Source of the DNA: Sporocytophaga sp.
GTDB taxonomy: Bacteria; Bacteroidota; Bacteroidia; Cytophagales; Cytophagaceae
Reading direction: 5' to 3'
Length of the DNA: 64,000 nt
Assembly (NCBI RefSeq): GCF_017745095.1
Contig: NZ_JAGHZZ010000010.1
Location: 82,997-146,996 of the forward strand
The position numbers and the translations under genes are program-made. Positions within the stretch are counted from its first letter, which is position 1; each line of letters opens with the position of its first letter. Shown one piece after another: positions 6,401 to 59,512 of this stretch. Under the pieces are notes generated by a model, which saw only the letters and a program-made list of their open reading frames with translations, was not told the DNA's origin and ran no database searches.

Positions 6401-9400
6401 GATTGATAGTATATATTTTCTGATCTGATGCAGGTGGACATGCACCATTACCAGTTGAAGTTAATGTAAGTACCAGCGAAGTTCCAGAAAGATCTGCAAC
6501 TGAAGGGTTATAAATCGCATTGAGTGTATTGTCATCAGGAGTGAAGGTTCCACTTCCGCTTGTACTCCATGTTGCGCCAGTTGCATTTACAACACTACCT
6601 GACTGCTGAAGGAATTCTTTGTCAGCACAAATCGTTTCATCAGGCCCTGCATTTATTATTGGAGTTTTTTGAATGGTTACAATAAGACTATCAGAAACAG
6701 GAGTACAATTTCCATTACCTGTTGTAGTAAGTGTCAATGTCACTTTTCCACTGATGGTATCATTAGCGGAAGGTACATAAGTAGCAACAGTGCTAAATGC
6801 ATTCGGACTGAAAGTTCCTGATCCTGAAGTTTTCCATGAACCGCCACTTGCAACTGATATTGTTCCGTTCAGAGGTGCACCTGTACCACTGGCACAGATA
6901 GTCTGATTCGTTCCGGCTTCAATAGTAGGAGCAGGTGTAATAGTTATATTGACTGTATCTGAAACAGCATTACAATCGCCGTTGCCGGTTGAAGAAAGAA
7001 TAAGTTTCACAGAACCAGCAGTATTATCGGCTACAGAAGGAGTGTATGTTGCAATCAGACTGTTTGGATCAGGTGAAAATGATCCACTTCCAGTGGTAGT
7101 CCATGTTGCTCCGGTAGCAACCGTAACAACACCATTTAGTGAAATCTTAGAATTATTTGCACATACGGTTCTGTCAGCTCCTGCATTAACAGTAGGTGCA
7201 GGTGTGATAGTAACAGCCAGTTGATCGCTAACTGGTTTACATAAACCGTTTCCTGAAGAAATTAATGTAAGAGTAACGGTTCCTCCTGAAATATCTAATG
7301 GAGAAGGTATGTATGATGCATTTAAAGAAACTGTATCAGGAGTAAAGGTTCCTGTTCCGCTTGATCTCCAGTATCCTCCGGTCGCAACAGATACTGTTCC
7401 ATAAAGGCTAATTTCAGCATTGTTTCCGCACACAATTTTATCGGCTCCTGCATTAACAGTAGGTGCTGGTGTGATTGTAATATTCATTGTATCGACAACA
7501 GCATTACAATTTCCGTTTCCTGTTGTAGTTAATAATAACCTTACTTTTCCTGACGCTCTGTCAGATACTGAAGGAACATATGTCGCAGTTGGAGTGACCT
7601 GGTTAGGGAAGAAAGCGCCACTTCCTGAACTTGTCCATTCAACGCCTGCCAGACTGGTTCCGGTAAATGAACCTGCAAGTGTAACTCCCATAAGGTCTTC
7701 ACAAATAGTCTGATCTGGACCAGCATTAACTGTTGGAGATGCCCCTACAGAAATAGTCATCTGGCTGGTTTTGGCTTTACATAGTCCGTTTCCGGTAGTT
7801 GTTAATGTAAGTGTTACACTGCCATTGTTAATTTCAGAAGCAGAAAGATTATAGGTAGCATTCAGAGCCGAACTATTCGCGATGAATATTCCAGTTCCTC
7901 CGGACCAGATTCCTCCAGATGCTACAGTTACAGATCCATTAAGGGTAAGCGTTGCATTATTAGCACATACATTTCTGTTGGTACCTGCATTAACTGTCGG
8001 AGCAGGAGTGATGATTACCGCAACTATATCTGATACCGGTGAACAAGCACCTGCTGCATTGGTAGTTAGAGTAAATGCTACTATTCCCTTGCTTATATCT
8101 GCTGCTGAAGGAATATAAGTTGTAATAGGCGAATTCGAATTCGCAAATGAACCCGTTCCATCTGAAGTCCAGAGGCTACCAGATGCAACTGTGATTGCAC
8201 CGTTTAGGTTGATTGCTGCAGTATCAGCACAAACTGTCTGATCCTGACCTGCATTTACAGTAGGCGTTGGATTCAGGTTTATAATAACTTGATCAGATGT
8301 TCCGTTACAAATTCCACTTCCTGTACTGCTAAGTGTTAATGTAACAGCAGTACCTTTATCAGCTTCAGATGGTATATATGAAGCATTCAATGCTGTAAAA
8401 GAAGGAGAGAAGGTTCCACTGCCTGATGTACTCCAACTAGCGCCTGTGGTATTCGCTTTATAACCTGCTAATTGTACCGATGGAACATTCGCGCAGAGAG
8501 TCTGATCTGGTCCTGCTTTTATTACTGGAGCAGGTGTAAATTGGATTGTTACATTATCAGTAACTGAAGCACAAGTAGGTGTGCTGGCAGAAGTAATTGT
8601 TAATGTAACTGATTTGGCTGCAGTATCCGCGGATGACGGAGTATATGTTGCCAGCAATGTTGTTGCGTTTGGCGTAAATGAACCAGTTCCAGATGTAGTC
8701 CAGGTAATTCCTGTTGCATTATTTGCAGTACCATTTAACTGAATTCCTGTAAGACTTGCACAAAGGGTTTGGTCAGGACCTGCATTTACGGTTACAGTTG
8801 GTGATATTGTCAACTGCATTGTATCTCTGGTAGTTGAACAAATCCCTGTTCCTGTAGTGGATAATATTAAATATACCGAACCTGCAGTTCTATCAGCAGT
8901 GGATGGTGTATAAGTTGCACTTAATGTTGAAGCGTTAGGAGTGAATGAGCCAGTTCCGGTAGTTGTCCAGAAACCTCCCGTCGCAGCATTGTTTATTGTT
9001 CCGTTAAGTTTGTAATTCGTTAAATTTCCGCACATTACAAAGTCAGCTCCCGCATTGGCGGTAGGAGCAGGTGGAATTGTAAATTTAACCTGATCAGAAA
9101 CTACAGGACATGCACCACTTGCTATTGTAGTAAGAGTTAGCGTAACTGTACCAGTGGTTATTTCTGATGCAGAAGGCATATATGTACCATTCGAAGTATT
9201 AGCATTTGGCGTAAATGTTCCGCTTCCTCCTGTCCAATTTGCTGCTGATCCTGAACCTGCTAATTTTATAGGAAGGTCATTAGCACACACTACCTGGTCT
9301 GGTCCCGCATTTACAGTCGGAACGGTTGTAAAGGAAAGTACAACCTGATCTTTAATTGCTTGGCATAGGCCATTACCTGTCGTAGTTAATGTTAATGTTA

Positions 9401-12400
9401 CATTTCCTGCAGTTTTATCTGCTGTAGAAGGAGCATAACTCGCATTAAGCGTGTTTGCATTCGGAGAAAATGTTCCAGTTCCGGATGTTGTCCATACCCC
9501 ACCTGTTGATCCTGTTACATTACCAGATAGTGTAACTGAAGATACAGCTCCGCATAAGATTTGGTCTGCTCCAGCATTTACTGTTGGAGCAGGTGCTATT
9601 GATATTATGATCTGATCTGACACTGGATTACAAATTCCATTTCCTGAGGTTGTTAAAGTAAGAGTAACGGAACCGGAATTAATTTCAGAAACAGTGGGCT
9701 GATAGGTTGTAGTCAAAGTAGAATTGTTAGGTGTAAATGTTCCCATTCCACCTGACCAAGTACCACCAGTTGCAACAGTTACAGAGCCTGTCAAAGAAAT
9801 TGCAGGACTATCTGCACAAACAGATTTGTCTGCTCCTGCATTTGCAGTAGGAGCAGGGGTGATGCTTACAGAAACCTGATCAGAAACCGGAAGACAATTA
9901 CCATTTCCTCTTGTAGTAAATGTAAGTGTTGCTGTTCCAGCTGCTATTTCAGCTGCAGATGGTACATATCTTATATTTAATGAATCTATATTCGGTGTTA
10001 TAGTTCCACTTCCCCCAGTCCATGTACCTCCAGCTGCAATAGTAACTTTTCCACTAAGATTTACCGCAGGATTGTTAGCACAAACTGTCTGATTTGTACC
10101 AGCATCAATGGTTGGAGTTTTGGTTATAGTTATTACTACCTGATCCTCAACTTCATTACAGTTTCCATTAAGTGTTGATTTTAAAGTAAGAGTTACAGAT
10201 CCTGAAGCAATTTCACCTGCAGTAGGGGTATATTTGGCATTTAATGTAGAAGCATTTGGTGTGAAAGTTCCTGCTCCCCCAGACCAGATTGTTCCATTTG
10301 CATTAGTAGCTGTACCATTTAGGTTAATAACGACGTTGTTAGCGCAAACAGATTGATCCGGCCCAGCATTTACCACTGGTGCAGGTGTAAAATTGATAGT
10401 GACCTGATCTGAGTGTGAATTACATGATGCTCTATTAGCAGTTAGAGTCAATATTACAGATCCTGAAGCAATTTCATTCGGAGTTGGAATATAAGTAATA
10501 TTTAAATCAGTAGCACTTGGTTGGTATAAACCAGATCCGCCTGACCACGATGAAGATGTAGCGTCTGTAGTAGTACCTGCCAAAGCAATATCTGGTTTGT
10601 TTTCACAAACCGATTTGTCAGATCCTGCATTGGCTACAGGAGATGGCTCGACAAGTATTAGAGTTGAATTAGAAACGGCATTACAAGTTCCATTACCAGT
10701 TGTGGTAAGTGTAAGAGAAATCAAACCAATTGACACTTCATTGGCACATGGAATATAAGTAGCATTTAACGTAGCATCATTTGGTATAAATGTTCCACAA
10801 CCACCAGTCCATTTACCACCAGTAGCTCCAGTTACAGATCCGTTAAGTGTAACGTTTGGATTGTTAGCACAAACTGTACTTCCCGAACCAGGTGTTGAAA
10901 TTGGTGATGGAGTGAATGATACCTGAACTTGGTCTGAAACAGATGGACATCCTGGTTTTGAAGCGGTAAGTGTTAATGTTACCGGACCAGCATTGGTTTC
11001 AGAAGTTGGTGAGGTATATGTAGTTGTTAATGCATTTGCATTTGAAAATGTACCAGCGCCTCCTGACCATGTATAGGTTGTTGCATTGGTGGAAGTACCC
11101 GAAAGATTTGCAGTCGGGTTGTTTTTACACACAGAAATATCTGCACCTGCATTTACAGTAAGTGCAGGTTGAATGATCACATTTACTTGATCAGTAACAG
11201 TAGCACAACCAACTTTAGTTGCGGTAAGTGTAAGTGTTATTGAACCTGACTTTTCTGAGCTGTGTGGTGTATAAACAGCATTTAAGCTGGAATTATTTGG
11301 TGAAAATGTACCTTTTCCTCCAGACCAAGTTATAGTTGTGTAATTTGTAGCGCTCGCAGCTAAAGTAGCGGTTCCACCGGCACATATCGTTTGGTCAGGT
11401 CCTGCATTTACAGTTGGGGCTTGCTCAATTGTTACAATTTTTGTAACACTTTGCGTTGCAGGACATACACCATTACCAGTAGAAGTAAGTGTTAAAGAAA
11501 CATTTCCTGATGCAATATCCGCCGGTGATGGAATATAAGTCGCTACCAGATTTGTGGCTGCAGGTGTGAAAGTACCAGTTCCTGAGCTGCTCCAAATTAC
11601 TCCTGTAGCATTTTGCACCGAACCATTCAAAGCAACCTGAGGGTTATTGGAACATACTGTAACTGCAGGTCCTGCTATAACTGAAGGAATTGCCTGAAAC
11701 CTAAGTGTCAGAGTATCTCTTATAGATGGACAGGCACCATTACCTGTAGAAACTAGAATAATTCTCACTAATCCTGCCGCTTTATCTGCTGCAGAAGGAG
11801 TATAGGTTCCGTTCATATTTGTTACATCGGAAAATGTTCCTGTGCCTGTTGTGGTCCACATACCTCCACCAGCATTTTGCACAAGACCACTAAGAGTATA
11901 AGCACCAACAGATCCGCAAATTGTCGAATCATTGTCTTTTGCATCTGGAATTCTAGTATCAGCATCTACAACAATGCCTGGAGGAACAGTATTGTCAGTA
12001 ACATCTGAAGTCGAATCCGCATACCACCAGGTGTTGACTGTATTTCTATTTCCATAATCTTTTGAAGTATTATCGGAACCATACCATGTCCATTGATGGC
12101 AAGGGTTATTACATCCTGCCAGGTTCTGACTTCCATTAGCTGCGGGAATATTTTTATCATCCCAATATAATTTTATGGGTGTTCCTGTTACAGGTCTTAC
12201 AAGATTTACAATATACCCATTGGGGTTTCCTTCCACATCATATAAAGGGATGTGTGTAAGCCCATTATAAAAATCTGTACGTGTTCTGATTGTTACAGCT
12301 GTCGTTACTCTGTTACCTAAACCATCTTTTCCATCCCATGGTATACATGTTTTAGGAGGGGTTACCACTGCTGAAATTGCCCGGTCTTTTGTTCCTGGCT

Positions 12401-13301
12401 GATGACCTGGAATTCCATTCAAATCAAGGAAGATTTGGGCAAAACCGGGTTTGTCTACAAACACATTTAAACAAAAGTTTGTAGGTGGGCAACCTGAAAC
12501 TGTTGTTGGAGCTGTAATTTTACCAAACTGACCTGTAGGGAAACAAGATTGATCCGGATCGTTAAGAAATACTTTGTATTTAGGATAGGTTGATGAACCT
12601 ACTTTTGATTGTCTGTCTAAATCAGGATTACCGGTATTTCCTGTACCGGTCATGTTAGCGTTCAATACGAACACATAAGGCTGCATTCCGTTAAAATTCA
12701 GAGAAGTAACAATACCATCATCTGCATATATATACATCAAACCTTTGAACGCATTGGTAAAACTTTTGGTAGACATCATCCAGGATTGAGACCAGATTCT
12801 TCCTTTTATGGGAGTATTGGCAGCAGATGCTACAGTAATATCAAACAAATCAAATTCTCTTCTTGGATTTCCATTAGGAAGTAAAAATTCAATGTAGTAA
12901 TCACCTGTTTTTGTAGGGGTAAAAGACATAGCGTCGTATCCGCTAGTCCCAACAATGGCAGAAGGTCCTGCTACTGCACGATTGTATGAAGAAATATAAC
13001 CAGAGCCAGTATTTGGAACATTAGTCTGGGGGACTACAATAACTCCACTGGAGTCTTTGATTCTAAATTTAACGTCATTATTCGGTTGATTAAAACCGAA
13101 ATATACTTTTTCACCAATGTTACAGATTCGTATATTTAATCTGCTGGTAGTCGGACAACCATATGTTGCAAATGGCGACCATCCAGGATCAAGTACAACA
13201 TATCCGTTATCCGTAGATGCAGGTCTTATCTCTTTTGTACCCTCTGAAAAACCCTGAGTAAAGAAGATAAACGAAAACAAGATCAATAGTGAGAATTTCA
13301 T
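420..13301 (-). CDS. Giant SprB-like repeat adhesin with T9SS type B (gliding motility) C-terminal domain
   Basis: A cell-surface adhesin of about 4,290 residues. I chose the ATG at 13301 because it begins a compact signal peptide (MKFSLLILFSFIFFTQGFS); an in-frame ATG at 13346 would add 15 basic residues. After a non-repetitive N-terminal region of about 450 residues come about 38 tandem units of about 85 residues. Each has an NAGPDQTVCANN-like start, a central W-T/S-G-x-G-x-F core and an LTLTTTGNG-like end. An Ig/PKD-like segment follows, then a C-terminal domain from about residue 4200 with NVFTPG, IFNRWGEIIF, WDG and PxGTYPYII. That is the gliding-motility-associated type B sorting domain. 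By family knowledge such proteins leave through the T9SS with help from PorP/SprF, encoded upstream at 16912-17961. Ligand unknown. Confidence 0.93.
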   Translation of the reverse strand: MKFSLLILFSFIFFTQGFSEGTKEIRPASTDNGYVVLDPGWSPFATYGCPTTSRLNIRICNIGEKVYFGFNQPNNDVKFRIKDSSGVIVVPQTNVPNTGSGYISSYNRAVAGPSAIVGTSGYDAMSFTPTKTGDYYIEFLLPNGNPRREFDLFDITVASAANTPIKGRIWSQSWMMSTKSFTNAFKGLMYIYADDGIVTSLNFNGMQPYVFVLNANMTGTGNTGNPDLDRQSKVGSSTYPKYKVFLNDPDQSCFPTGQFGKITAPTTVSGCPPTNFCLNVFVDKPGFAQIFLDLNGIPGHQPGTKDRAISAVVTPPKTCIPWDGKDGLGNRVTTAVTIRTRTDFYNGLTHIPLYDVEGNPNGYIVNLVRPVTGTPIKLYWDDKNIPAANGSQNLAGCNNPCHQWTWYGSDNTSKDYGNRNTVNTWWYADSTSDVTDNTVPPGIVVDADTRIPDAKDNDSTICGSVGAYTLSGLVQNAGGGMWTTTGTGTFSDVTNMNGTYTPSAADKAAGLVRIILVSTGNGACPSIRDTLTLRFQAIPSVIAGPAVTVCSNNPQVALNGSVQNATGVIWSSSGTGTFTPAATNLVATYIPSPADIASGNVSLTLTSTGNGVCPATQSVTKIVTIEQAPTVNAGPDQTICAGGTATLAASATNYTTITWSGGKGTFSPNNSSLNAVYTPHSSEKSGSITLTLTATKVGCATVTDQVNVIIQPALTVNAGADISVCKNNPTANLSGTSTNATTYTWSGGAGTFSNANALTTTYTSPTSETNAGPVTLTLTASKPGCPSVSDQVQVSFTPSPISTPGSGSTVCANNPNVTLNGSVTGATGGKWTGGCGTFIPNDATLNATYIPCANEVSIGLISLTLTTTGNGTCNAVSNSTLILVEPSPVANAGSDKSVCENKPDIALAGTTTDATSSSWSGGSGLYQPSATDLNITYIPTPNEIASGSVILTLTANRASCNSHSDQVTINFTPAPVVNAGPDQSVCANNVVINLNGTATNANGTIWSGGAGTFTPNASTLNAKYTPTAGEIASGSVTLTLKSTLNGNCNEVEDQVVITITKTPTIDAGTNQTVCANNPAVNLSGKVTIAAGGTWTGGSGTITPNIDSLNIRYVPSAAEIAAGTATLTFTTRGNGNCLPVSDQVSVSITPAPTANAGADKSVCADSPAISLTGSVTVATGGTWSGGMGTFTPNNSTLTTTYQPTVSEINSGSVTLTLTTSGNGICNPVSDQIIISIAPAPTVNAGADQILCGAVSSVTLSGNVTGSTGGVWTTSGTGTFSPNANTLNASYAPSTADKTAGNVTLTLTTTGNGLCQAIKDQVVLSFTTVPTVNAGPDQVVCANDLPIKLAGSGSAANWTGGSGTFTPNANTSNGTYMPSASEITTGTVTLTLTTIASGACPVVSDQVKFTIPPAPTANAGADFVMCGNLTNYKLNGTINNAATGGFWTTTGTGSFTPNASTLSATYTPSTADRTAGSVYLILSTTGTGICSTTRDTMQLTISPTVTVNAGPDQTLCASLTGIQLNGTANNATGITWTTSGTGSFTPNATTLLATYTPSSADTAAKSVTLTITSASTPTCASVTDNVTIQFTPAPVIKAGPDQTLCANVPSVQLAGYKANTTGASWSTSGSGTFSPSFTALNASYIPSEADKGTAVTLTLSSTGSGICNGTSDQVIINLNPTPTVNAGQDQTVCADTAAINLNGAITVASGSLWTSDGTGSFANSNSPITTYIPSAADISKGIVAFTLTTNAAGACSPVSDIVAVIITPAPTVNAGTNRNVCANNATLTLNGSVTVASGGIWSGGTGIFIANSSALNATYNLSASEINNGSVTLTLTTTGNGLCKAKTSQMTISVGASPTVNAGPDQTICEDLMGVTLAGSFTGTSLAGVEWTSSGSGAFFPNQVTPTATYVPSVSDRASGKVRLLLTTTGNGNCNAVVDTMNITITPAPTVNAGADKIVCGNNAEISLYGTVSVATGGYWRSSGTGTFTPDTVSLNASYIPSPLDISGGTVTLTLISSGNGLCKPVSDQLAVTITPAPTVNAGADRTVCANNSKISLNGVVTVATGATWTTTGSGSFSPDPNSLIATYTPSVADNTAGSVKLILSSTGNGDCNAVSDTVNITITPAPTIEAGTNQTICASGTGAPLNGTISVASGGSWKTSGSGTFSPNAFSTVATYVPSANDTISGKVTLTLTTTGNGNCTPVSDSLIVTIQKTPIINAGPDETICADKEFLQQSGSVVNATGATWSTSGSGTFTPDDNTLNAIYNPSVADLSGTSLVLTLTSTGNGACPPASDQKIYTINPVPTVNAGADQSLCANNSNVVLSGVKTIATGVMWTSSGDGTFSPGNTSLSATYIPSADDIAGGSVAITLTTTGNGACNATSDQLNVTLTPAPTITAGPDQTVCANNANIQLSGDYTVATGGIWTTSGTGTFSPSVNDKNAIYKPSAQDKTSGNVTLTFTSTGNGNCSVVTDNMTVTITPAPTVNVGPTINICATTTGVPLNGVITTGATGGIWATGSGDGTFSPSNTDLNATFMPSANQIANGKANLTLTTTGFGNCKSVSANLVINISPLAVVNAGPDVQVCAGAPGIALSGTVKKATGGTWSTSGTGTFVPDPTALNATYVPSAAENVNGSTVQLTLTSTGNGFCTPVTDDMTISFKITPVDAGPDQQFCSNMLPVQLNGSGNGTWSGGLGTFSDSTSLSATYTPTAAEIGTKVQLILTGAALGSCIAGKDTMVIDLLRGPSIDVGTDLSICENNPIANITATYADADGVIWKTEGNGTFSNASSASTVYTASPQDIITGVIRLFATTINTNICRPEADTLTLTFTPAPTVDAGSDITSCANVGAINIKGTVTGATGGSWSIVSGSGTFANAALVSTSYTPSPADISNGSVTLRLTSNPTDNCSTVYDDLVINIGTAPTVDAGNDETICADANHIVLNGSVQIASGGHWTTSGTGIFSPNDNTLNATYIPSADDINNLGVTLTLTTTGNGTCTPVSEDKVVTINPAPTVNAGPSQTVCADNTAITLSGNRTVALGSIWSSTSGGSFADPNSLNTTYTPTAAEKAAGSINLTLTTTNNGLCHEVSSTVSILITPIPVVNAGLDQSACVDVNSYQLAGKVKNAPAGIWTTSGSGSFDDANALNAIYTPSSTDKTNGSVTLTFASAGNPLCNVVSDQLVLSFTKAPTITAGLDHSICADKDTIHIAGAVTVAAGGKWSSNGDGYFAPSANSLGTVYYLGDADKGQTAVTLSIISTDNGTCNAVTDNLQIDIAPKPVVNAGADQTICAGQANAILSATVLNATGGVWSTTGTGTFANGTSLSTTYIPSPADNEAGGIILTLNSTGNGLCNAVSDFIVINVIPSPSAIVNAGADIITCKDLRSVKLSGYVSNAGGGIWSTSGTGTFTPDINTLNASYTPSLADKATGNFVLTLTTANNGQCSAVSDDMSVTLTPIPVVTAGSYPDICGLAQASIPLNGNVTIATGGIWKSSGSGVFAVDAATLTATYFPSKLDIQNGVVGLTLTSTGNGTCAPVMQTTQVKIIQPPVVDAGTDKSYCSDIVTLVLRGTSQFDNGVTWTGTGTGTFNPNNKVTSIYSPTDADKSIGKVVVKLTAAGKGSCPATSKTSVITILPAPQADAGPDQTTCNILNSYSLNGIHKNSTSGAWFTSGTGSFDDFNKPDAIYFPSDADKTSGSVDLVFITTGNGICKFSQDTMTLYVDKSPIVNAGTAMICAIEDGSQLAGDIKNASGGKWSTSGTGVFAINAADLNAKYYPTMDDFNKGQVVLKLTSFINGACPAVSDSTVLKIDPLPIADAGKDQFVCRGTTIILEAKTSPGITYEWKNKAGTIISTDPVFSITAASDSAITLTVKDYKGCPVLDSINVGVFDFNNSKFDMLDHYCYSDTLIIHSLASGLPAVPGQYQWYRDGVILNSENKSAIAPQSDGLFRVVYEYGNCSTEKTTNVTNPPALTRQPVLGCIGTTLPITIVSDVNNVDYSWITGEQGRDLNSINVPVAADTNYFRATVTDILGCNSSDSVMVIGIERPIINLSDVVSCAGQTVTLVGTPSNMDKFAPFVPDYAWFKENNDMHVNNDSLNVTESALYVVSITLGQCTTNDSAHVLFNALPVSQLPEFTKLCPEYGAKVTLDAGYNVNYMYKWTSINPVSDKDTSKIEVPTPGTYFVLITNKENCSITDTILVRDLCNPRLDVPNVFTPGKHETPENETFRAYGKYVVNYKMMIFNRWGEIIFETGDKDEAWDGYYKGQLMPIGTYPYIITYEGEDPESRGPYKKEGKVTLLK
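1920..11960 (-). repeat. About 38 tandem ~250-bp repeats inside the adhesin gene
   Basis: The protein-level repeat is clear by eye and the count of about 38 comes from the AGxD...C motif at the start of each unit. Units diverge in DNA sequence, length and the cysteine-flanking residues, so this is an old domain array rather than a recent slippage array. Several units share longer identical stretches (ITPAPTVNAGADK-like joins), so recombination between units remains possible. Unit boundaries are approximate. Confidence 0.9.
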
Positions 13302-13525
13302 TCTCTTTTTGATCAATTTGTTCGATTTAAAATCTCCCGGAAACATGTTAGTAGTATTTTGTTTGACAAATTATAGATCCTTCAATATCCTTTTAAATCA
13401 TTTTAATAATTGTGTATGGATAATTACGACACAATTATTACTGCCTTTTACGGAAATCAAAATCTATAGTTGTTTTGTCTAATAAAATATTTATTTAATC
13501 TAATAGTTTTGAGGAGAGAAAAGTC

Positions 13526-47657: not shown

Positions 47658-50600
47658 TTAAAGCATTTTTAAAATCTCTCCAGCTTTTCGGACAACGTAA
47701 GGCAGACCTGTTACATTATCTAATGCAATATCAATACCTGCACCATCGTAGCTTATCCAATCACCTGTAGAATGGAGTTTATAAATAGCAAAATTGTCTG
47801 CATTCGCAGGAGTGGCGCCGATTATCCATGTTTCATCATTCTGCCCAATGGCAAGACTGCTTACCTTTTCAGGTGTAGTTTCCTGACTCCATGAAGTTCC
47901 GTCAAAGGAAAACAAGTCGCCAGGCTTATTGATGACCCAAGGGATATTATTTGAAGCCATGAAGATTTTTATTGCTCGCCCAGTTATTTGATCCGTAGAT
48001 GAATTAGATACATTGAATCTCACTACCTCAAACCCATTGGCATCGCCATTCTGATCTTTTAAGATCCAGATATTCCCATTGTCATCTATGCTCACATCTG
48101 TTGCTGTTGTGGAAAGTCCTGGAAACTTCTTAAACGAATTATTCTCTACATGAAAAATCATATTATTGGAATCAATTAGCCAAGGGGCAAGCGTTCTATC
48201 AACTAAAACTTTTTTGGCCCCATCAAAAATAGGAGCTGCTGAAACTATAGTCGCCTTTCTATCAACAGAGTATAATTTCACATTATTGTCAAGAAGAGTA
48301 GAGCCGACTATCCAAAGAAAATCTTTTCCAATGGCAAAATCTGTTGCTGAAAGTTCGGGGATTCCAGTTGAAACTTTAGACCATGAGGTTCTTACAAATC
48401 CAATTTCAGCAGAACAACTGTTAGCGTCCATGATAGCTTCAATGGATTGAAACAGGTCATAGCAGTCTTTAGTTATTGTAACTGTTCTTTTTTGCTTAAG
48501 GGGGCCCCAATGTTCTCTGTTCATTCTAATCCCCAATGCTGCCAATACAACCGAAAAGGCTGGATTTATATAAATGAGCTGCTGGAATTTTACACCAGCC
48601 GCATTACTACTTTCATTGGACGCTCGGTGTGGTCTTGGATTTGAGATTTTGTTATTCCCAATTTTAAAAATATCAAGCATATTTCCTCTTGACTGTAGTT
48701 CAGTGTATATCTCATACAAATCATGTATATCCTTAAAACGAGGAGTTGTATTTCCCACGCCAATACTTCTTGACATTTGAAAAAAGCCGGCTTCCGATGC
48801 CTCGCTCTGCTTTGTTTCAGCTGTTTCCCCTGTATCCAGATTTAAACCTGCGCTATACTGCCCTTCACTTTCCTGCATCCCGAGACCGAAGAGAAGAGTA
48901 AATACCTTTCTTAATGTTGGGATTCCGGCGGCATGATCAGTAATTCCCAGGCCGGGCTTGCCATTGCGACCAGTTGTAAATTCTAGATCGTAATGATTTA
49001 ATGCATCAGTATCATCATTGGCTACAGGAGCCTTACTCATGGCAGTAGCGAAACGTTCATTCTTTTTTATCAAGGCATAAAAACGCCCATACATAAGGGC
49101 CATACCCACCACAAAACCAGCATGATCAATTGGTTTACCGCGATCTGCAGAATAGTTTTGATTAATCCATGCTAATCCACTGACTGCGTCGATAATCTGT
49201 TTCTCACAGGCAGTCTTTGCAAGACTTTTTAGAGTAGCAAAAGTTTGGGCTGCATCTGTACCTGAATTTTTGCCTTCTCCAAGAATGGCATCTTTAAAAT
49301 GAACAATCTGAATAAATAAATTGCTGGAAGGATTATCTGTCACCATTGCCTGGTACTGACTCAGAAAATCAGAGAAGGATTCTTTCTGCTCTCCATTTAC
49401 GGCTGGGTCTAAAAAGACTAGCTGGCTGTTTTCTTCTGTACCATCTCCATCATATCCTATAAGGATTTTGGCATGAGGTGAAAGATTCGAAGTGGCATCA
49501 CTGTCAACCGTAATCCAGAGTGGACCATAGGTTTTCATCCAGTCCAAATAGGTATTGAATGTATAGTTTGCCGGCGGCTCGCCTATCATTCCAAGAGGTT
49601 CAATAAATGCTGTCTTTTCACTTGCCAGCAATGGTTGATTATTGTTGTATTTAGTTAAATATTCGTCTGAAACCATTGATAAGACATCCTGTATTGAATA
49701 CGTTTTACCATCTTTCCAGCTTTTCATCATCGTGGCGGCAGCAGCCCAACATGCATTTGCCTTATCACCTTGAAGGATGAGAGGAACTTTTGGCCCCGCT
49801 ACTCTGTAATTTTGTGTATTACCAGCCCCAATCTCTACTGACTCAGATTTTCCTTCACTATCGATACTCGTCGCTTTTACTGGCTTGCCCTGGTCTGCTG
49901 CTTTTACTGCAGCATCTGTGAGAGATGGTTTTGTGTTCTGTGTATTTTCCTGTTCTGCCTTTTTGGTCTGACCTCCGTCTACCATTTGTCCGAAATGGTC
50001 TTTTAATAGTTTCGCTTTCTCCTCTTTTGTCAGCTCAGGTGAGTTCCTGATTGAGTCAGCGATCTTGTCTGAATGCTCTGTATTATGGCCAATGGTATAA
50101 ATTTCTTTAGCCATTTGTGCAAAGTCTTTTGCATTCTGCTGGTTGGATAGGTAAGTCTGCATTGCATTCTTCTGGTTTTGATCCAGACCAGTAATGTCTT
50201 TAAATACATCGCTTTTGCCGAGTAGATCAGAAATGCCCGCCAGACCTGCACCTGGTGTTGGAGTTGCCGGTGCATTCTGGATATTGACGATAGGTGTGGC
50301 AAAGTCCTTAAATGCCGCCTTCCAGTCTGTAACAGTAGGTACAGGGACAGTAACAGGATTGATAGGAGTTGGTTCATCCGTTTTGAATACATTCCAATCT
50401 TGCGAGGAGTTTTCCTTTACTTTTTCACAGGCATCACAAGCTCCTTGTACTGCTTCTGCAAAGACTCCTTTGCTTGGAATACTTATGCGGTAAGGAGGGA
50501 TAGGAGTAAGGGGCTTATAATGTTCAAGCAGATCTATTTCTACTGCAGGGCCTTCAATGGGTTGCTCTACCACAAATGTCCTGTCTATTTTGTATCCAGG

Positions 50601-53600
50601 CGCTACCGGCATAATCAATGAGTTTCCAGAGATACCAATCAGTTCATTTTTTACTACGGAAGCTAAACTTCTATATCCTACAGGAAGTCCGAAATCGTTA
50701 TATGTTTCGATACTGAAACCATCCAACAACATATATCTCCTATCAGGATCAAGCGCTCGCCACAATACTTTATTGTAGTATTCAAGATTGCTATTAAGAT
50801 GTACAATAAGCTTTTGAGCCATGTACTGATCTTCTTTTTTAGGGTTGCGTTTTTCGTTGGCGTTTTCCGGAGTATATAATGTACTTCCGTCAACTAAATC
50901 ATCGCCTACAAAGCCACTATATAGAATGCCATTATAATGCGGGGTAGAGTAACGAACTGTCACATTTTTAACAATGAGTGTAACAAGGTCATTGGTAAGA
51001 CTTGCTGCATTAAAGAAACCAATTTGTAATTGGGAAATCTCATTCCTCTTCTTATTGGATCCGCTGCCTCTAAGATTTATTCGCATTTGAGTATTTCCCC
51101 CTTTGTATTTGGTCTCTGTTGAAAAATCTACCGCTGAAAAACTACCGAGACTCAGGCTTCTGGATATTGTTTCAAAAATAAGAGGTGCTATGTCATTGTA
51201 GAAGATGCTATCCCATTCAGAGATCAATCGATCTTTAAAATAATATGCTAGCATATCAAAGGTGCCTTTGTTAAGTAATTTTGCATAGGCATCCCATTGT
51301 GATTTATCAAAGCCTCCTTCTTCGAAGAAGTTCTGATCAATCTTTTTTATTCGAATACATTGGGCAGGGGGAACGCTTGCAAAATTTGCATCCACAGAAA
51401 TGTAATCATCGATCACACTATATGCATCAGGTTTTAAGCTTCCATCCGGATTTAAATAACCTCCAACAATTGCACCAAGAGGTCCTCCAAGGATACCACC
51501 GATTAATGCAGCTGACCAAGACCAAATAGATTTTTTCTCAATCGGCCATGATTTTATCCTGTCATATTTTGATTTTGGACGAGGCAGATTCGTTTGTATA
51601 TAGATCTCGCCGGTAATAAATGTAATGACCTCCTCATCATAGGCACCATCGGGAAAGTCCACATTTTCATAATTGGTTTTTATCCTGTCAATAGCATCAA
51701 AAGCTCTCAGCAAAGGATGCTGGCGACCAATTCCTACAAGAGTGAATGGTTGAAGATAAGTTTCAGAAGGCATAGGTAATAAATGGCTTGCCAACACATC
51801 ACGCCATTTGAAGACATTTTCCCTCGTGAAATTTGTCATTAATAAAGGAATAAAAAGACATTCTTCTACAAATGTAAGTTCTTGATAAATCGCGTAGTGT
51901 CTCAGTACCTCAAAATACATCATAGTAAGAGAATGACAATGATTGTGGTTGGCAATCACTTCTGTAGTTACTCCATAATTTTGTCCTTCCTTCACTGTCG
52001 ATATCACGGAGGCATTCAACTCACGGTAACTTTGTGCATTCTGATTTATTGCATTTTTGAATTGTTCATTAAAATATTCTGATACGGATCGGGAACTGTT
52101 TTGAGAAGCGGTAGAGTGAGAATTGGCAACTCCTCCAGATACACCAAATGCACCACCTATTCCCTGAATAATACCTGCAAGACCAAACCCAGCACTTACT
52201 CCTGAGGTTGTGGCAGAACTACTGCCTTTCGTTGATTCACTTAAGTTCCCCGCAATGGTGTCTGTTATACTTCTGTCATTGACAAGAGAAGAAGTCAATG
52301 ATTCACGTTGAGAGACAGTTTGAGATTCGCTTCCAGTCAAGGTATGACTTTGTTCAAATATGACGATCTCCTTTTTTTGCCCAGGAGCAAGCGGTAAGGA
52401 GTACAATAATTCTCCCATGGAGTAACCATCTGCTTTAGTCACTATGTTGTAATGAAGGATATGGCCAGTGGCTACAGTGACTGCCTGATAAATAGAAAGG
52501 TTCACATGGGCATCAGGTGCATCCTGCCAGTAAATTGGGTTGCTTAAATCAATCGGCTTACGGACAATTTTAGTCAGGCCTCCTTCCAACCTAAAGTTGC
52601 CTTTTTCATCTCTGGCAAGGGTGTAGTTGGCCACATCAGGATCGGATGTCCTGACGATCGCCAATTGAGAATACTCATTAATCGTCCTATTGGGTGTAGA
52701 AAGATTGACACATGAACCACCTATATCCTGAGAGTAAGAATCAGATTTTATCAGGTCATCTTGACCAGGAAGACGATTTGATTTTTTTACATCATGACAT
52801 CCACAATCATCCTCTTCGTCTTCATTTGTCTCGCAATTGGCATCCTGTAATAACAAGTAGAGAAAATCATCTGAGATAGTTTCATTTATTGAAACGTGCT
52901 CTTCATCCGCATAAACGTTGATATCTGCCGGACTATTTGGTGTCAATGAGACCAATGCCTGAGCGGATAAGTAATTTCCATATGGATAAGGCAGTGAGAA
53001 ATTTCCAGAACTGTCTGTAGTTGCCGAACCTACAATTCTCCATATGGTATCACCTTGTTTTTTTGCTTGTATTACTATAGTAAGATCATTTAACTTGCAA
53101 AGGCCAGACATCTCAAGCACTTTACCCGTTAATTTTTTATTTCCCCCAGATGGCTTGGGTCCATTGTCATTAGTTATGACTTGAGGTCTTGTAAGTGGAA
53201 CTTCAATGAGTAAATTTTTTAACTCAGGATTGGTGGCTTCATACTGATTTTCCCAAGGGATCGACCCATCATAGCTTTTGACTCTTATGCTTAGTGGACC
53301 GCTTATGAAATTAGTTATAAGTGGCTGGAATATGAATGGAATTTCATTGTTCGTGTTCGGTTGAGCGCTTGTCCAATCAAAACTGATTGAATGAGGATAA
53401 GCATTGAGAGCTGTGTCCTGTATAACATACTCAAGGGATAAATTAAAAAAGTTAAAATCCTTGGCTGAGACAAGTGAACCGTCAGAAGTATTAATCTTGA
53501 ATGTTCCTTTGATTTCTGCAGTGGTTATTTCGGGAACAGTAACAGGAAAATCAAATAGGTCATCTGTAATAATATCTTTAAGGGTATTGATGGATTCATT

Positions 53601-54314
53601 TCTGCCTATCCCAAAATTCGTTTTTAGAAAGGGGATAAGTTCATCTAGGTTAATTTTGATTTTTGGTTTGCCTGATGATACATCTGTTACGTGTGAAATG
53701 ATAAAAAGTAAAGCGTATTCATTAAATCTAGGTTCTGCTGATCTAAACTGAATTGCTGCTTTTGAAAAAGAATCTTTATTTATAACAAAGACATTCTTTC
53801 GTATATAGTCGATCAAGTCCAATTCTAATCTTTCTGCGGCACCTTCATTGACAACAACTCCTGAATTAAGTGCCGCTTTTCGATCCATGATTTCCCTATA
53901 TTTCTCTGAAGCGGTGGATAGACTATAAAGAGAACGCATCTGAGTTTGCCCAAATAGATTTCCTTTATTGTCTTTAATTTCAACTTCGATCTCTGCCGAT
54001 AAAGCATCCAGAAGATGGAGATCATTGTTTGTGAAACCAATCGTACCAAGGTATTCATAGAAGAGTTTCACTGAATTTGAGTTAGAGCCAACGAACAATT
54101 CGTTAGGGAAGGAAATTTCATAACTCTCATCCTTTAGTTTTTTATTTATAATCTTTACTTCCTTACCAATAGCATTTCTTTGAGGAAAAGGCCTCCCATC
54201 TCTTAAAAATGTATCGAATTCAAAAGTGGGAATTTTGAAGTTGAGATTAACTTCGCTTAAAACTGTAGCTGATGAATCACCAGCATACTTGAATGTTCTT
54301 TGTAGAGTTGCCAT
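47658..54314 (-). CDS. Giant multidomain protein: papain/C39-like peptidase, lysozyme-like domain, tectonin-like propeller; no signal peptide
   Basis: 2,218 residues without a signal peptide (MATLQRTFKYAGDSSATVL). Residues 1-390 are mixed alpha/beta; about 395-470 is a carboxypeptidase-regulatory-like beta domain; about 690-760 is rich in Ser/Thr/Gly with hydrophobic glycine stretches, and a second glycine-rich segment (AALIGGILGGPLGAIVGG) is near 940. A papain-like (C39/AvrRpt2-type) peptidase shows ANACWAAAATMMKSW (Cys1522), SPHAKILIGYDG (His1614) and FLDPAVNG (Asp1636/Asn1640). A lysozyme or lytic-transglycosylase-like block has GMQESEGQYSAGLN (Glu1815) and EAGFFQMS (Gly1843-Gln1846). From about 1975 to the end are tectonin-like propeller repeats (TDVSIDDNGNIWILKD, SSLAIGQNDETWIIG). 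It resembles an injected effector; nothing here proves delivery. Confidence 0.8.
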   Translation of the reverse strand: MATLQRTFKYAGDSSATVLSEVNLNFKIPTFEFDTFLRDGRPFPQRNAIGKEVKIINKKLKDESYEISFPNELFVGSNSNSVKLFYEYLGTIGFTNNDLHLLDALSAEIEVEIKDNKGNLFGQTQMRSLYSLSTASEKYREIMDRKAALNSGVVVNEGAAERLELDLIDYIRKNVFVINKDSFSKAAIQFRSAEPRFNEYALLFIISHVTDVSSGKPKIKINLDELIPFLKTNFGIGRNESINTLKDIITDDLFDFPVTVPEITTAEIKGTFKINTSDGSLVSAKDFNFFNLSLEYVIQDTALNAYPHSISFDWTSAQPNTNNEIPFIFQPLITNFISGPLSIRVKSYDGSIPWENQYEATNPELKNLLIEVPLTRPQVITNDNGPKPSGGNKKLTGKVLEMSGLCKLNDLTIVIQAKKQGDTIWRIVGSATTDSSGNFSLPYPYGNYLSAQALVSLTPNSPADINVYADEEHVSINETISDDFLYLLLQDANCETNEDEEDDCGCHDVKKSNRLPGQDDLIKSDSYSQDIGGSCVNLSTPNRTINEYSQLAIVRTSDPDVANYTLARDEKGNFRLEGGLTKIVRKPIDLSNPIYWQDAPDAHVNLSIYQAVTVATGHILHYNIVTKADGYSMGELLYSLPLAPGQKKEIVIFEQSHTLTGSESQTVSQRESLTSSLVNDRSITDTIAGNLSESTKGSSSATTSGVSAGFGLAGIIQGIGGAFGVSGGVANSHSTASQNSSRSVSEYFNEQFKNAINQNAQSYRELNASVISTVKEGQNYGVTTEVIANHNHCHSLTMMYFEVLRHYAIYQELTFVEECLFIPLLMTNFTRENVFKWRDVLASHLLPMPSETYLQPFTLVGIGRQHPLLRAFDAIDRIKTNYENVDFPDGAYDEEVITFITGEIYIQTNLPRPKSKYDRIKSWPIEKKSIWSWSAALIGGILGGPLGAIVGGYLNPDGSLKPDAYSVIDDYISVDANFASVPPAQCIRIKKIDQNFFEEGGFDKSQWDAYAKLLNKGTFDMLAYYFKDRLISEWDSIFYNDIAPLIFETISRSLSLGSFSAVDFSTETKYKGGNTQMRINLRGSGSNKKRNEISQLQIGFFNAASLTNDLVTLIVKNVTVRYSTPHYNGILYSGFVGDDLVDGSTLYTPENANEKRNPKKEDQYMAQKLIVHLNSNLEYYNKVLWRALDPDRRYMLLDGFSIETYNDFGLPVGYRSLASVVKNELIGISGNSLIMPVAPGYKIDRTFVVEQPIEGPAVEIDLLEHYKPLTPIPPYRISIPSKGVFAEAVQGACDACEKVKENSSQDWNVFKTDEPTPINPVTVPVPTVTDWKAAFKDFATPIVNIQNAPATPTPGAGLAGISDLLGKSDVFKDITGLDQNQKNAMQTYLSNQQNAKDFAQMAKEIYTIGHNTEHSDKIADSIRNSPELTKEEKAKLLKDHFGQMVDGGQTKKAEQENTQNTKPSLTDAAVKAADQGKPVKATSIDSEGKSESVEIGAGNTQNYRVAGPKVPLILQGDKANACWAAAATMMKSWKDGKTYSIQDVLSMVSDEYLTKYNNNQPLLASEKTAFIEPLGMIGEPPANYTFNTYLDWMKTYGPLWITVDSDATSNLSPHAKILIGYDGDGTEENSQLVFLDPAVNGEQKESFSDFLSQYQAMVTDNPSSNLFIQIVHFKDAILGEGKNSGTDAAQTFATLKSLAKTACEKQIIDAVSGLAWINQNYSADRGKPIDHAGFVVGMALMYGRFYALIKKNERFATAMSKAPVANDDTDALNHYDLEFTTGRNGKPGLGITDHAAGIPTLRKVFTLLFGLGMQESEGQYSAGLNLDTGETAETKQSEASEAGFFQMSRSIGVGNTTPRFKDIHDLYEIYTELQSRGNMLDIFKIGNNKISNPRPHRASNESSNAAGVKFQQLIYINPAFSVVLAALGIRMNREHWGPLKQKRTVTITKDCYDLFQSIEAIMDANSCSAEIGFVRTSWSKVSTGIPELSATDFAIGKDFLWIVGSTLLDNNVKLYSVDRKATIVSAAPIFDGAKKVLVDRTLAPWLIDSNNMIFHVENNSFKKFPGLSTTATDVSIDDNGNIWILKDQNGDANGFEVVRFNVSNSSTDQITGRAIKIFMASNNIPWVINKPGDLFSFDGTSWSQETTPEKVSSLAIGQNDETWIIGATPANADNFAIYKLHSTGDWISYDGAGIDIALDNVTGLPYVVRKAGEILKML

Positions 54315-56516: not shown

Positions 56517-57872
56517 CTAGGGGAGTGTTTTTCCATCTTTATTGTATTCTTTGGCTATGCCTTTGATAAAATCTTCTTTTCTTAAAATAAAGTCTTCTCT
56601 ATTCACTGCCATTAAAGAAACATAGCGAATAACATTTGTAATGGATCCTCCAGACAGTTCATAATTTTCTGCGATTGTTTTAAGGTTAACATCCTCATCT
56701 AATTTCATTTCAATTGGTAAAGAATTTTTCCATAAATCTAATCGCATTGTGTGATCCGGCATTTGGAAATGTATGAATGATTGGAACCTTCTGGTGAATG
56801 CATCATCCATGTTATTTTTAAGATTGGTGGCAAGTATGATCAATCCTGGATAATCTTCAATTCTTTGTAATAAGTACGAAATTTCCTGATTGGCATATCT
56901 GTCATGCGCATCTTTGGCTTGGGTCCGTTTGCCAAATAATGCGTCTGCTTCATCAAAGAATAGTATCCAATTTTGCCTTTCAGCCCTGTTGAAAATATTT
57001 GCCAGATTTTTCTCAGTTTCTCCAATGTATTTAGATACCACCATGGATAAATCAATCCTATAAACATCAAGATTGTTCGCTTTGCCAAGTAAGGCAGCGG
57101 TTAAAGTCTTACCAGTACCTGGTGGGCCGTAAAATAAAGCTCGGTATCCTAATTTTATTTTTTTGGATAATCCATAGTTGTAGAGAACTTTCTTTCCATG
57201 CTTAATCCATGCATTGATTTCTTCAATCTCTTCTATAGTTTTCTCATTTAATATCAGATCACTCCATTCTTGTCTTGACTCAAGTATACTGGCAGGAAAA
57301 GAAGTAGTGTATTCAGGTTTAAATGACTTTGCTGTTGCTATAAAATGTATTGTCTCCTGAGTCGGCAATACAGCTTTAGAAGTAAATGGATCTATAGGTG
57401 AAGGATTAAAAAACTCAATTAAATTATGCTGCACCAACTTACAATTGGTATGGAAATACTTCAATAAACCTATTCTTTGTATGGCATCATCTCCTGCCAG
57501 TATAAAAAGTACAGTTTCAATTGTAGGGATTAACCCGTGATAATTTTTAGTATTGCCAGTTATGCCTCCAACATAAGATAGGATATGATTTTTACTTTCA
57601 CACTGAATTACTAAATCGTCAAGTAAACCAGGGTATAAAGTTGGTGCCAGTGAGGTTGCAAGCGTGATTCTCTCTAAGGCGGTCAATGTATGGGTTTGAA
57701 TAATTCTTCCATAAGGGGAATCGTCCGGAACTGTAAAATTTATATTCTCAGGAATTAATTCTTTTTGATCTTTTTGGATAAGATTATTTATACGGAAGTT
57801 GATCAGATTTTGAAGGATTTCGAAATCTTGAAAAAGACAGGTGTCTTTAATTTCCAAGTGGTTAGTTAACAT
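56517..57872 (-). CDS. AAA+ ATPase of the eCIS-associated type
   Basis: 451 residues from the ATG at 57872; a TTG three codons earlier (57881) is less likely. An N-terminal helical domain of about 200 residues, unlike classic AAA proteases, is followed by one AAA+ module: Walker A GPPGTGKT, Walker B ILFFDEADALFGKR, sensor 1 LILATNLKNN and the arginine finger block DAFTRRFQ, then GGSITNVIRYVSLMA. Such N-domain/AAA proteins (Afp15-like) accompany extracellular contractile injection systems and are thought to help assembly or effector loading. It is divergent from the DUF4157 gene by 89 bases. No sheath, tube or baseplate genes are in the window. Confidence 0.8.
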   Translation of the reverse strand: MLTNHLEIKDTCLFQDFEILQNLINFRINNLIQKDQKELIPENINFTVPDDSPYGRIIQTHTLTALERITLATSLAPTLYPGLLDDLVIQCESKNHILSYVGGITGNTKNYHGLIPTIETVLFILAGDDAIQRIGLLKYFHTNCKLVQHNLIEFFNPSPIDPFTSKAVLPTQETIHFIATAKSFKPEYTTSFPASILESRQEWSDLILNEKTIEEIEEINAWIKHGKKVLYNYGLSKKIKLGYRALFYGPPGTGKTLTAALLGKANNLDVYRIDLSMVVSKYIGETEKNLANIFNRAERQNWILFFDEADALFGKRTQAKDAHDRYANQEISYLLQRIEDYPGLIILATNLKNNMDDAFTRRFQSFIHFQMPDHTMRLDLWKNSLPIEMKLDEDVNLKTIAENYELSGGSITNVIRYVSLMAVNREDFILRKEDFIKGIAKEYNKDGKTLP

Positions 57873-57896
57873 AATACTCAAATATATAGAATTAAT

Positions 57897-57961: not shown

Positions 57962-59512
57962 ATGATTGTCAATTCCAGAAATAAGAAAACCCAATTTTCA
58001 AAGCAGAATGAAACTTTGTCTTCACAAGGGAAATCCATTAATGAACTAAATGCTCAAAATTATTCAGTAAACAATCAGTTATTGGGTATCTCGAACAACT
58101 CCGACTCTGAGATACAAAAAAAAGAAACTAACACTAATGATAATTCTTTTTCTGCAATGCCAAATGAATTGCAGGCAAAAATGGAAAACTCTTTTTCTTC
58201 GGATTTTTCTAATGTGAAAATTCATAAAGAGTCTAACAAGGCCTCACAAATGGGAGCTCATGCATTTACGCAAGGAAATGATATACATTTTGCTCCTGGT
58301 AAGTTTGATCCTTCCGGAAACTCCGGACAGCAATTACTTGCACATGAATTAACACATGTTGTTCAACAACGGAATGGGAAAGTAAACCCTACTGCACAAT
58401 TAAGTGGGATTTCAATAAATAATGATCCCACTCTGGAAAAGGAGGCAGATATTATGGGGGCTAAAGCAATCAAAGGAGAAAAAAATTTCTCAGCTAAAGC
58501 TTCATCTGAAAATAACAATGTAGCAAATGTAGTTCAAGGATTTTTTACCCAGACACATAAAACCAAACCATATAAAGTTGCAGACGATTTAAGTTTGGCG
58601 GTTGAAGTCGGCTATCCGAATCATATCTTGTTTGCAAAGGCTGGTATGGCTGCTACTGCCAATACAAAACTAAATGCTGTTGGATCAGGCATAGAATTAC
58701 AAGAAACTTCTACTTCAGATACATTTTCTAATGGCTCAAAAAGCGAAACGCTAAAACAAGTATTACCTAAAAATAAGAAAAACAGTACTCAAGGGACTAA
58801 TATGAATCTTTGGGCTGATTGTGGAAAGAGTAATGCAGAAGTGGTTGGTGGTTCCAGCAGAAAGGCAGCTTATAAAGATGGTGGTGCATTAAAATGGACT
58901 GCAGCCGGATCTCCCGCGGAAATGAAGTCTGAGATAATGAAGAATTGGTTAACGAAAAAGTATAACAATGTCAGTACTCCTTCGACAACTAAAATGCAAA
59001 TTAAGTCTGTATTGGATGCTGCCAAGGTTATTGATAGTAATATGGCTAAGCAACTTGATGCATATGGTAAAGCAAAGACAGATAAAGAGCGTGAAACTAT
59101 TGCAGATAAATATTTTTCCCTTCAAGATGAGAAAGCAGAAAAGCTCTGGGAATATTACAATGGCCTTCCGACAACTTCTAAAGAATCAATCGATAAAGAG
59201 TTGGCTATAAACAGATATGCGAAACCAACAATAGGTGAAGGTTATACTACATCATCCGGGGGAACTCCTGTAGCAGGTTATGAAAATAATACATGGAATT
59301 TCCATTGGGGAGGTGTAGTATTAGAAAGTACTGATACCTCGGATAAAGTAGTATTAGAGAATTATGCAGTAGGAGATGCCTCTGTTGAAAATGATCTATG
59401 GGAATTCGCCATGTATGGTACATCCAAAAAAGGTCAGACTTTTCACGATGTGCATTCTGATACCAATCAACACGGGACAAGTCCAACGACCATGAGAATA
59501 AACAAAGCATGA
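57962..59512 (+). CDS. DUF4157 effector-like protein with HExxH motif and C-terminal Cys-His-Asn domain
   Basis: 516 residues, no signal peptide, Asn/Ser-rich start. Residues 60-140 form a DUF4157 domain: [23 protein letters not shown], the block [17 protein letters not shown] and [13 protein letters not shown] with the HExxH site at 128-132. DUF4157 marks effectors of extracellular contractile injection systems, where it may serve as a loading or processing domain. The C-terminal part has [10 protein letters not shown] (Cys287), [12 protein letters not shown] (His448) and [10 protein letters not shown] (Glu466-Asn467), an order that recalls NlpC/P60 or papain-like cysteine enzymes. A lipoprotein gene overlaps its stop by 4 bases. 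Confidence 0.83.

Follow-up and report, generated by a model that had tools for sequence, protein, structure and literature searches.

In polymorphic toxin systems, as set out in the portions of PMC3482391 drawn on here, a conserved N-terminal part carries exchangeable C-terminal domains, and both swappable ends and built-in peptidases are already known; some papain-like domains upstream of the end domain are taken as releasing peptidases, and an OmpA domain at the C terminus is taken as toxin. Toxins associated with extracellular contractile injection systems (eCIS) are, in the sections of PMC8213781 and PMC11297309 consulted, multidomain proteins with no apparent signal peptide that occur in genomes with an eCIS, and peptidoglycan hydrolysis is among their proposed activities, eCIS-linked toxins of this kind being already known (PMC8213781). 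The gene considered here, P0001, lies on a 64,000-nucleotide stretch of a Sporocytophaga sp. genome (the window; RefSeq assembly GCF_017745095.1, contig NZ_JAGHZZ010000010.1, positions 82,997 to 146,996 of the forward strand). Its product is a giant protein in which, by homology, an N-terminal region and a weak β-sandwich-like piece are followed by a conserved core, a Peptidase_C70 domain, an endolysin-type lysozyme-like module and a tectonin-type β-propeller (Table 1). Among relatives, the core is retained and the part behind it varies; the ends that could be recognized are mostly of predicted peptidoglycan-acting or peptidoglycan-binding type.

P0001 thus resembles the polymorphic toxins in its conserved N-terminal part with exchangeable C-terminal domains and in its papain-like peptidase upstream of the end domain, and some relatives carry OmpA on the C-terminal side. 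It differs from them in that no trafficking domain was recognized and no adjacent immunity gene was found, and its core is not among the domains described in the consulted portions of PMC3482391, the comparison being by description. With the eCIS-associated toxins it shares the multidomain build, the lack of an apparent signal peptide, a genome with an eCIS and, in two genomes of the genus, an eCIS_core gene in the neighborhood; it differs in having no DUF4157, in lying outside the eCIS cluster and in having relatives in genomes without Pvc16 or eCIS_core. A literature survey of partial coverage, confined to titles and abstract openings, returned no description of this tectonin/C70/endolysin-type build.

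Table 1. Features of P0001 and of the surrounding window (positions refer to the window; residues refer to P0001)
Feature	Residues	Position	Strand	Evidence
P0001, whole gene, 2218-aa open reading frame (ORF)		47658..54314	minus	ORF call, 2,218 codons without a stop
N-terminal region, with matches confined to the nearest relatives detected (G016, Pontibacter/G167, G404)	1-320	53355..54314	minus	Sequence searches
Weak β-sandwich-like piece	395-480	52875..53132	minus	CarboxypepD_reg 0.066, phage_tail_N 0.057 (both under Pfam cut-offs); PDB 9e7m (tail fibre) 0.0064
Conserved core (~900 residues)	545-1445	49980..52682	minus	Alignments A1 and A2, hmmsearch, genome searches
Charge-free Gly/Ser/Ala-rich stretch inside core, 45 residues	697-741	52092..52226	minus	Sequence scan
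Cys793, NHCH motif	793	51936..51938	minus	Co-varies with Cys1296
Second charge-free Gly-rich stretch	929-956	51447..51530	minus	Sub-threshold C19orf12-like match
Cys1296, CxxCE motif	1296	50427..50429	minus	Co-varies with Cys793
Peptidase_C70 (AvrRpt2-type papain-like)	1510-1654	49353..49787	minus	Pfam PF12385, E 5.2e-25
Endolysin-type lysozyme-like module	1684-1965	48420..49265	minus	PHROG 33367 over 1722-1965
Tectonin-type β-propeller	1966-2218	47661..48419	minus	AlphaFold2 model and Foldseek
Family 2A encapsulin set, downstream of P0001		43131-46905	minus	Shell 4.3e-161, cysteine desulfurase cargo 2.9e-276, serine acetyltransferase
AAA+ ATPase (context only)		56517..57881	minus	AAA 1.3e-27; best PADLOC matches IetA
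eCIS_core (DUF4157) protein (context only)		57962..59512	plus	eCIS_core 5.6e-29

A preliminary description of the locus had proposed a multi-warhead effector that reaches its targets by a non-Sec route, encoded by a 2,218-residue frame for which no strand was named. The frame proved to lie on the minus strand; across the same interval, the plus strand contains many stops. P0001 was the sole match in a search of its own genome, and a homologue in another species of the genus (G016) aligned over the full length with 92% identity. Between these two genes, substitutions at codon positions 1/2/3 numbered 27/13/185 over residues 391-1450 and 44/28/106 over residues 1-390, and third-position substitutions exceeded the sum of first and second in all five regions of P0001. 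Given the full-length homologue and the third-position excess, P0001 is a selected gene and no chance ORF; the substitution pattern indicates purifying selection that is stronger in the middle of the protein than in residues 1-390. Distribution of the gene is patchy: of the four genomes of the genus, two have a copy. Mean hydropathy stayed below 1.2 in every 19-residue window that starts before residue 306, and thus no Sec signal is apparent in P0001, in agreement with the preliminary description. A promoter and terminator scan returned counts lower than the shuffled mean.

The larger finding at this locus is the core, which is missing from the preliminary description. It has no curated model in Pfam, NCBIfam, PHROGs or PADLOC, where sub-threshold or weak scores were the best obtained (0.0052 for PHROGs), and its profile returned a single match among solved structures, at an E value of 0.93. 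The carrier core appears to be undescribed. Genome searches detected related cores in 13 of the 291 genomes from the order and in 11 of the 395 from the phylum (overlapping sets), as well as in 29 of 72,556 plasmid records assigned to Streptomyces, Embleya, Ruegeria, Novosphingobium, Caballeronia, Psychrobacter, Polaromonas, Nostoc and Haladaptatus; nine of the 29 were opened, the remainder being mostly S. clavuligerus. Beyond its own phylum, the core therefore occurs in Proteobacteria, Actinobacteria, one cyanobacterium and haloarchaea.

Twenty-four long core proteins were compared: P0001; the proteins of the genomes G016, G404, G001, G226, G028, G033, G090, G063, G114, G412, G234, G189 and G042; and those of Pontibacter sp. 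172403-2 (G167), Caballeronia, Psychrobacter, Polaromonas, Ruegeria, Novosphingobium, S. clavuligerus, S. nigrescens, Haladaptatus and Nostoc. The core is matched weakly in G042, G234 and G189 (E 6e-9 to 5e-6); G016 was placed by alignment and G114 by its likeness to G063, and neither was scanned by Pfam. In G033, the core gene (L046, 10692-16011) lies in two overlapping frames and is thus probably a broken gene or a sequencing fault; the Pfam scan covers the downstream frame. Six short core proteins of 435-466 residues, from the same phylum or class, comprise the most conserved part of the core together with the CxxCE motif. All six were inspected and one was scanned by Pfam, one further short hit (G389) being left out.

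Comparison with relatives from other genera revealed where the ends are exchanged. Identity between P0001 and the Pontibacter protein was 46-88% per 100 residues up to residue 1600 (73% over 1501-1600), then 54% over 1601-1700 and 18% over 1701-1800, remaining at 22% or less past residue 1700. With the G404 protein, identity was 66% over 1301-1400 followed by 29 and 22%, and similarity stops near residue 1450. Given that the drops fall at different points, C-terminal exchange is indicated at two places. The Pontibacter protein ends in Amidase_2, the G001 protein in DUF2272 (3.7e-19) and the G226 protein in Peptidase_M23 (2.1e-18). OmpA lies behind the core in G028 (3e-11) and was matched in the Psychrobacter protein at 25.7 bits, 1.5 bits under the Pfam cut-off of 27.2. 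The end of the Caballeronia protein is lysin-like and of the phage baseplate-hub type (phrog_196, 7.8e-39); that of the Nostoc protein is an endolysin-like stretch with a single PHROG match at 9.4e-5. The G404 end contains a metallopeptidase-like HExxH region, the motif being found by eye and all Pfam matches being under cut-off. Overall, 10 of the 24 long proteins have a peptidoglycan-related end (G016 by alignment), one has the metallopeptidase-like end and 13 have none that was recognized.

The Haladaptatus protein, encoded on a haloarchaeal plasmid, combines the core with DUF2272 (2.6e-15). Haloarchaea are not known to have murein of their own. The presence of this combination in such a host points at foreign cells as the target, the activity of DUF2272 being putative: the consulted part of PMC10318531 classes the domain with the NlpC/P60, CHAP and amidase group as a possible peptidoglycan amidase in which a conserved serine replaces the catalytic cysteine. 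That relatives swap the tail for other cell wall-related domains suggests a modular weapon against other cells, and this exchange supports the effector-like build advanced in the preliminary description. The core protein of a Polaromonas plasmid (L062, 7147-10758) ends in ~250 residues without a Pfam match; they include what we take to be a YEIKP-like nuclease motif, and the end may be one that does not act on the wall.

Peptidase_C70 is the sole Pfam family above cut-off in P0001, at 88.4 bits against a gathering cut-off of 19, and falls within the 1400-1700 segment in which a peptidase-fold match was sought. The papain-like peptidase of the preliminary description is therefore a C70 domain, with the catalytic triad C1522/H1614/D1636 intact. 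In an alignment of four rows (P0001, Pontibacter and two stand-alone C70-like proteins), Cys and His were kept in all four and Asp in three, with Asn in the fourth. The domain resembles family C70 (AvrRpt2) in both the Pfam match and the triad; it differs in being placed inside a giant protein, beside an endolysin-type module, and no evidence was found for a host target of the domain. A C70-region match was also noted in G090 (contig C123, L012); it is 36% identical across residues 1475-1676, and its frame is interrupted by one TAA.

The lysozyme-like block that the preliminary description had placed at residues 1815-1846 is supported as part of an endolysin-type domain by a match to PHROG 33367 (3.1e-17); Pfam returned no match for residues 1684-1965. 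Proteins of three Bdellovibrio phages (phi1402 gp39, phi1422 gp01 and MAC3UK_0039) match residues 1722-1965, and one of the three is annotated as a putative peptidoglycan binding protein. The consulted portions of papers on Bdellovibrio phages and spanins give no account of this endolysin-like protein. An alignment query identified 167 relatives of the module on viral contigs (IMG/VR), of which 80 were fetched, 53 aligned, 25 inspected by ORF and nine scanned. PG_binding_1 was present in all nine scanned proteins, Amidase_3 in five and GH25 in one, which is the make-up of modular endolysins. Across 54 rows (P0001 and the 53 aligned relatives), E1815, E1841 and Q1846 were invariant and G1843 was kept in 90% or more. 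The phage proteins align to residues 1722-1965 and share the conserved E...E-A-G-x-x-Q block. Viral forms of the module are accompanied by Amidase_3, GH25 or PG_binding_1, or else follow a hydrophobic N-terminal segment with no other domain (seen by eye); in P0001, by contrast, the module lies within a 2218-residue cellular protein. Although PHROG 33367 is listed as a viral family of unknown function, such company suggests that environmental viruses use it as a building block of modular endolysins. On a Sinorhizobium terangae plasmid (L090, 1740-4690), the endolysin-type module forms part of a short protein whose N terminus has a hydrophobic stretch, and its gene adjoins one that looks, by eye, caspase-like with GH25.

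The viral affinities of these modules raise the possibility that P0001 is a phage tail or prophage relic, the core being a virion structural protein that carries a tail lysin. The baseplate-hub end of the Caballeronia protein, the weak tail fibre-like match at residues 395-480 and the endolysin-type module itself would fit such an origin. The core, however, is not phage-like by the searches made: its best PHROG score is the poor one given above, no relative of the core was found on viral contigs (three protein or alignment queries and one pattern scan, single queries reaching close relatives only), and no phage genes were recognized by eye beside the homologues. The reach of single queries can be judged from residues 1684-2218, for which a single query found no viral relative and the alignment query found the 167. 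Among 50,697 phage records, the core occurs in one, an unverified scaffold. We regard a phage relic as very improbable. The record in question (MT835996, "Bacteriophage sp.", L065) is a 20-kb scaffold filed as phage and matches the core with 78% coverage; its long dense ORFs and absent annotation lead us to suspect a bacterial origin.

AlphaFold2, applied to residues 1684-2218 with the 53 viral relatives, returned a helical part followed by a β-propeller, with a mean predicted local distance difference test score (pLDDT) of 74.8 and a predicted template modelling score (pTM) of 0.68. The viral relatives cover the helical part only, and thus the propeller model rests on one sequence; its pLDDT values are mostly 60-79. 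A joint Foldseek search of this segment was dominated, in the 50 rows shown, by matches to the propeller. Ranks 1-3 were tectonin 2 of Laccaria bicolor (5fsb_A, E 1.9e-9, template modelling score by target 0.73), with other propellers from rank 4 and a fish-egg lectin at rank 20. The Pfam Tectonin model matched the segment at 3e-4 and 20.7 bits, below the gathering cut-off of 30. P0001 therefore shares a modelled propeller fold with tectonin 2 (5fsb) and fish-egg lectin (4rus), at 17-20% identity to the former, and the tectonin-like propeller of the preliminary description is borne out to that extent; this region, the C1522/H1614/D1636 pattern and the E...GxxQ block were all located where it had put them. 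In the S. clavuligerus core protein, a tectonin match inside the core region lies at the cut-off (30 bits), so a tectonin-type domain recurs among core proteins.

Two uses of such a protein other than attack on foreign cells were considered. A cytoplasmic store of murein hydrolase, released on the cell's own wall in programmed lysis, differentiation or wall turnover, would account for the lack of an apparent signal peptide, of an immunity candidate and of a second match in the genome, and the module does resemble phage lysis proteins. Such a self-directed enzyme is nonetheless unlikely, since a tectonin-type propeller fits foreign or outer-surface glycans, a haloarchaeal member carries DUF2272 and the gene is patchy both in its genus and in its order. 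Alternatively, P0001 could be secreted as a digestive or predatory complex with which the cell breaks down bacteria, living or dead, as food; a peptidase joined to an endolysin-type module and a propeller of glycan-binding type would suit this role, as would the metallopeptidase-like end of G404. In this group, however, Sec signals and type IX secretion system tails are the norm for digestive enzymes, and neither is apparent in P0001; this use is held to be improbable.

Within the core, the sequence suggests two elements that could bear on delivery. The Gly/Ser/Ala-rich stretch at residues 697-741 is a candidate membrane-active hairpin, and in 14 of 16 aligned cores (the exceptions being L050 and L051) the scanned part likewise had a Gly-rich sequence as its longest charge-free stretch. 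The second element is the pair Cys793 and Cys1296, which are 503 residues apart. In 25 rows, made up of 19 of the 24 long proteins (G033, G090, G042, G234 and G189 being omitted) and the six short ones, both cysteines were present in 18, neither in seven and one alone in none (Fisher p 2e-6, uncorrected for kinship). The other pairs of Cys columns without a mixed row involve one column with Cys in only five or six rows, which are taken to be the short proteins. A disulfide or shared metal site would be the simplest reading of this co-variation. Were the disulfide real, it would imply that the protein spends its life outside the cytoplasm.

We tentatively favor, at somewhat short of an even chance, the interpretation that P0001 is a modular, Sec-independent effector directed against cell walls and equipped with a probable releasing peptidase. 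Synthesis would take place in the cytoplasm and release would bypass Sec, either through lysis of some producers or by another route. The propeller would bind glycans or lipopolysaccharide on the target surface. The core, which would have a Cys793-Cys1296 bond acquired outside the cytoplasm in addition to its Gly-rich stretch, could help the protein onto or across the outer membrane. C70 might then sever the connection to the endolysin-type module, which, once freed, would degrade peptidoglycan. A broader proposal, that the core is a self-sufficient delivery scaffold which in Bacteria and Archaea carries exchangeable murein-attacking tips across the envelope of a target with no dedicated secretion machine, and would represent a new class of interbacterial weapon and not the cargo of a known system, is considered doubtful.

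Delivery by an injection system was also weighed, since the preliminary description had seen the likely link in the neighboring DUF4157/AAA+ pair. The pair is real, its two genes being divergently oriented, and the genome does encode an eCIS: a cluster on contig C55 (L040, 11442-19901, and L041) contains sheath and Pvc16 genes identified by profile and tube-, spike- and baseplate-like genes recognized by eye, the giant gene itself being on contig C1. At the corresponding place in G016, however, the pair is missing and a RibD_C gene is found instead, although the genes flanking the giant are kept. Another eCIS_core protein (358 residues, 1.4e-9; L007, 2453-3529) lies ~6 kb from the G016 giant gene. 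The genome of P0001 contains 10 eCIS_core matches, one of them ~4 kb from P0001, and G016 contains 11; with 10-11 such genes per 6.3-6.6 Mb, nearness by chance is estimated at <3% in each case. The proximity of different eCIS_core genes in both carriers of the genus therefore argues for some link within it.

P0001 might accordingly be eCIS cargo, loaded with the help of the nearby eCIS_core and AAA+ proteins and injected into targets. Besides the nearby eCIS_core genes and the cluster on C55, Pvc16 is enriched among genomes of the order with a strong core (6 of 10 versus 74 of 291 overall; one-sided Fisher p 0.020) and remains so when weak cores are included (7 of 13; p 0.024), rows not being independent in either count. 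Peptidoglycan hydrolases and OmpA ends are also known in toxins linked to eCIS or Photorhabdus virulence cassettes, according to the consulted parts of PMC8213781 and PMC3482391. The distribution of markers nevertheless runs against a general role. An eCIS_core domain is absent from P0001 itself in Pfam scans. Outside the genus, the homologues lay in unrelated contexts: in the 10 other core-bearing genomes (G001, G028, G033, G063, G090, G114, G167, G226, G404 and G412), no eCIS_core gene was found near the core gene, and six of them (G028, G033, G090, G226, G404 and G412) have none at all. Pvc16 was absent from the core-bearing genomes G167, G226, G028, G033 and G404, and the two nearest relatives outside the genus (Pontibacter/G167 and G404) lie in genomes that returned neither Pvc16 nor VipB hits. 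Within the genus, all four genomes have Pvc16 and 9-12 eCIS_core matches, yet two carry the giant gene. Where the neighbors of homologues were listed (S. nigrescens excluded), neither annotation nor inspection by eye revealed an eCIS cluster, neighbor gene names in the G-numbered genomes being mostly read by eye from sequence starts. A cargo role is thus judged rather unlikely; an eCIS_core link may hold within the genus and, on this distribution, cannot be general.

Other neighbors were examined as well. The family 2A encapsulin set is of known type and has the same orientation as P0001, and a similar set was seen by eye near the G016 giant gene. Membership of a common operon was rejected, as none of the encapsulin genes was recognized by eye beside the Pontibacter or G404 genes. 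A role in anti-phage defense was likewise rejected, there being no PADLOC match for P0001 and IetA-type matches for the neighboring AAA+ gene only. Elsewhere in the window, positions 420-13346 encode a repetitive protein of 4,308 residues with a hydrophobic N terminus by eye, which is likely to be a surface or secreted protein.

Several observations weigh against an effector aimed at foreign walls. Neither a secretion signature nor a delivery system could be tied to the core family; in P0001, no trafficking domain was matched in Pfam, NCBIfam, PHROGs or PADLOC and no hydrophobic N terminus was seen, and the type VI secretion system sheath protein VipB was detected in none of 12 genomes, although divergent Bacteroidota systems could escape this search. 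There is no immunity-gene candidate, the 752-base downstream gap holding only ORFs of 54 residues or less. The Gly-rich stretches give no proof of membrane insertion. By parsimony, the cysteine states require three changes, of which the well-supported branches force one, so the co-variation of Cys793 and Cys1296 may rest on few events. PHROG 33367 has no recorded enzyme activity, and the profile of residues 1684-2218 found nothing better than E 0.33 among solved structures. A recognized warhead is absent from 13 of the 24 long proteins (G114 being unscanned), one of which, the weak match G042, has an Amidase_3 gene (6.3e-29) 2 bases downstream. Together with the short cores, whose 435-466 residues leave little room, this proportion means that wall attack may not be the task of the core.

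In summary, the meaning of the DUF4157/AAA+ neighborhood, if it has any, would be confined to the genus of P0001. For PHROG 33367, a viral family with no assigned function, a role as an endolysin module is suggested. If the favored interpretation is correct, one conserved core links bacteria and archaea and carries swappable ends that are mostly related to the cell wall, and the question becomes how a protein of 2,000 residues with no apparent signal reaches a foreign wall in genomes without the injection-system markers searched for here. The core would then represent a new body among polymorphic toxin-like carriers.

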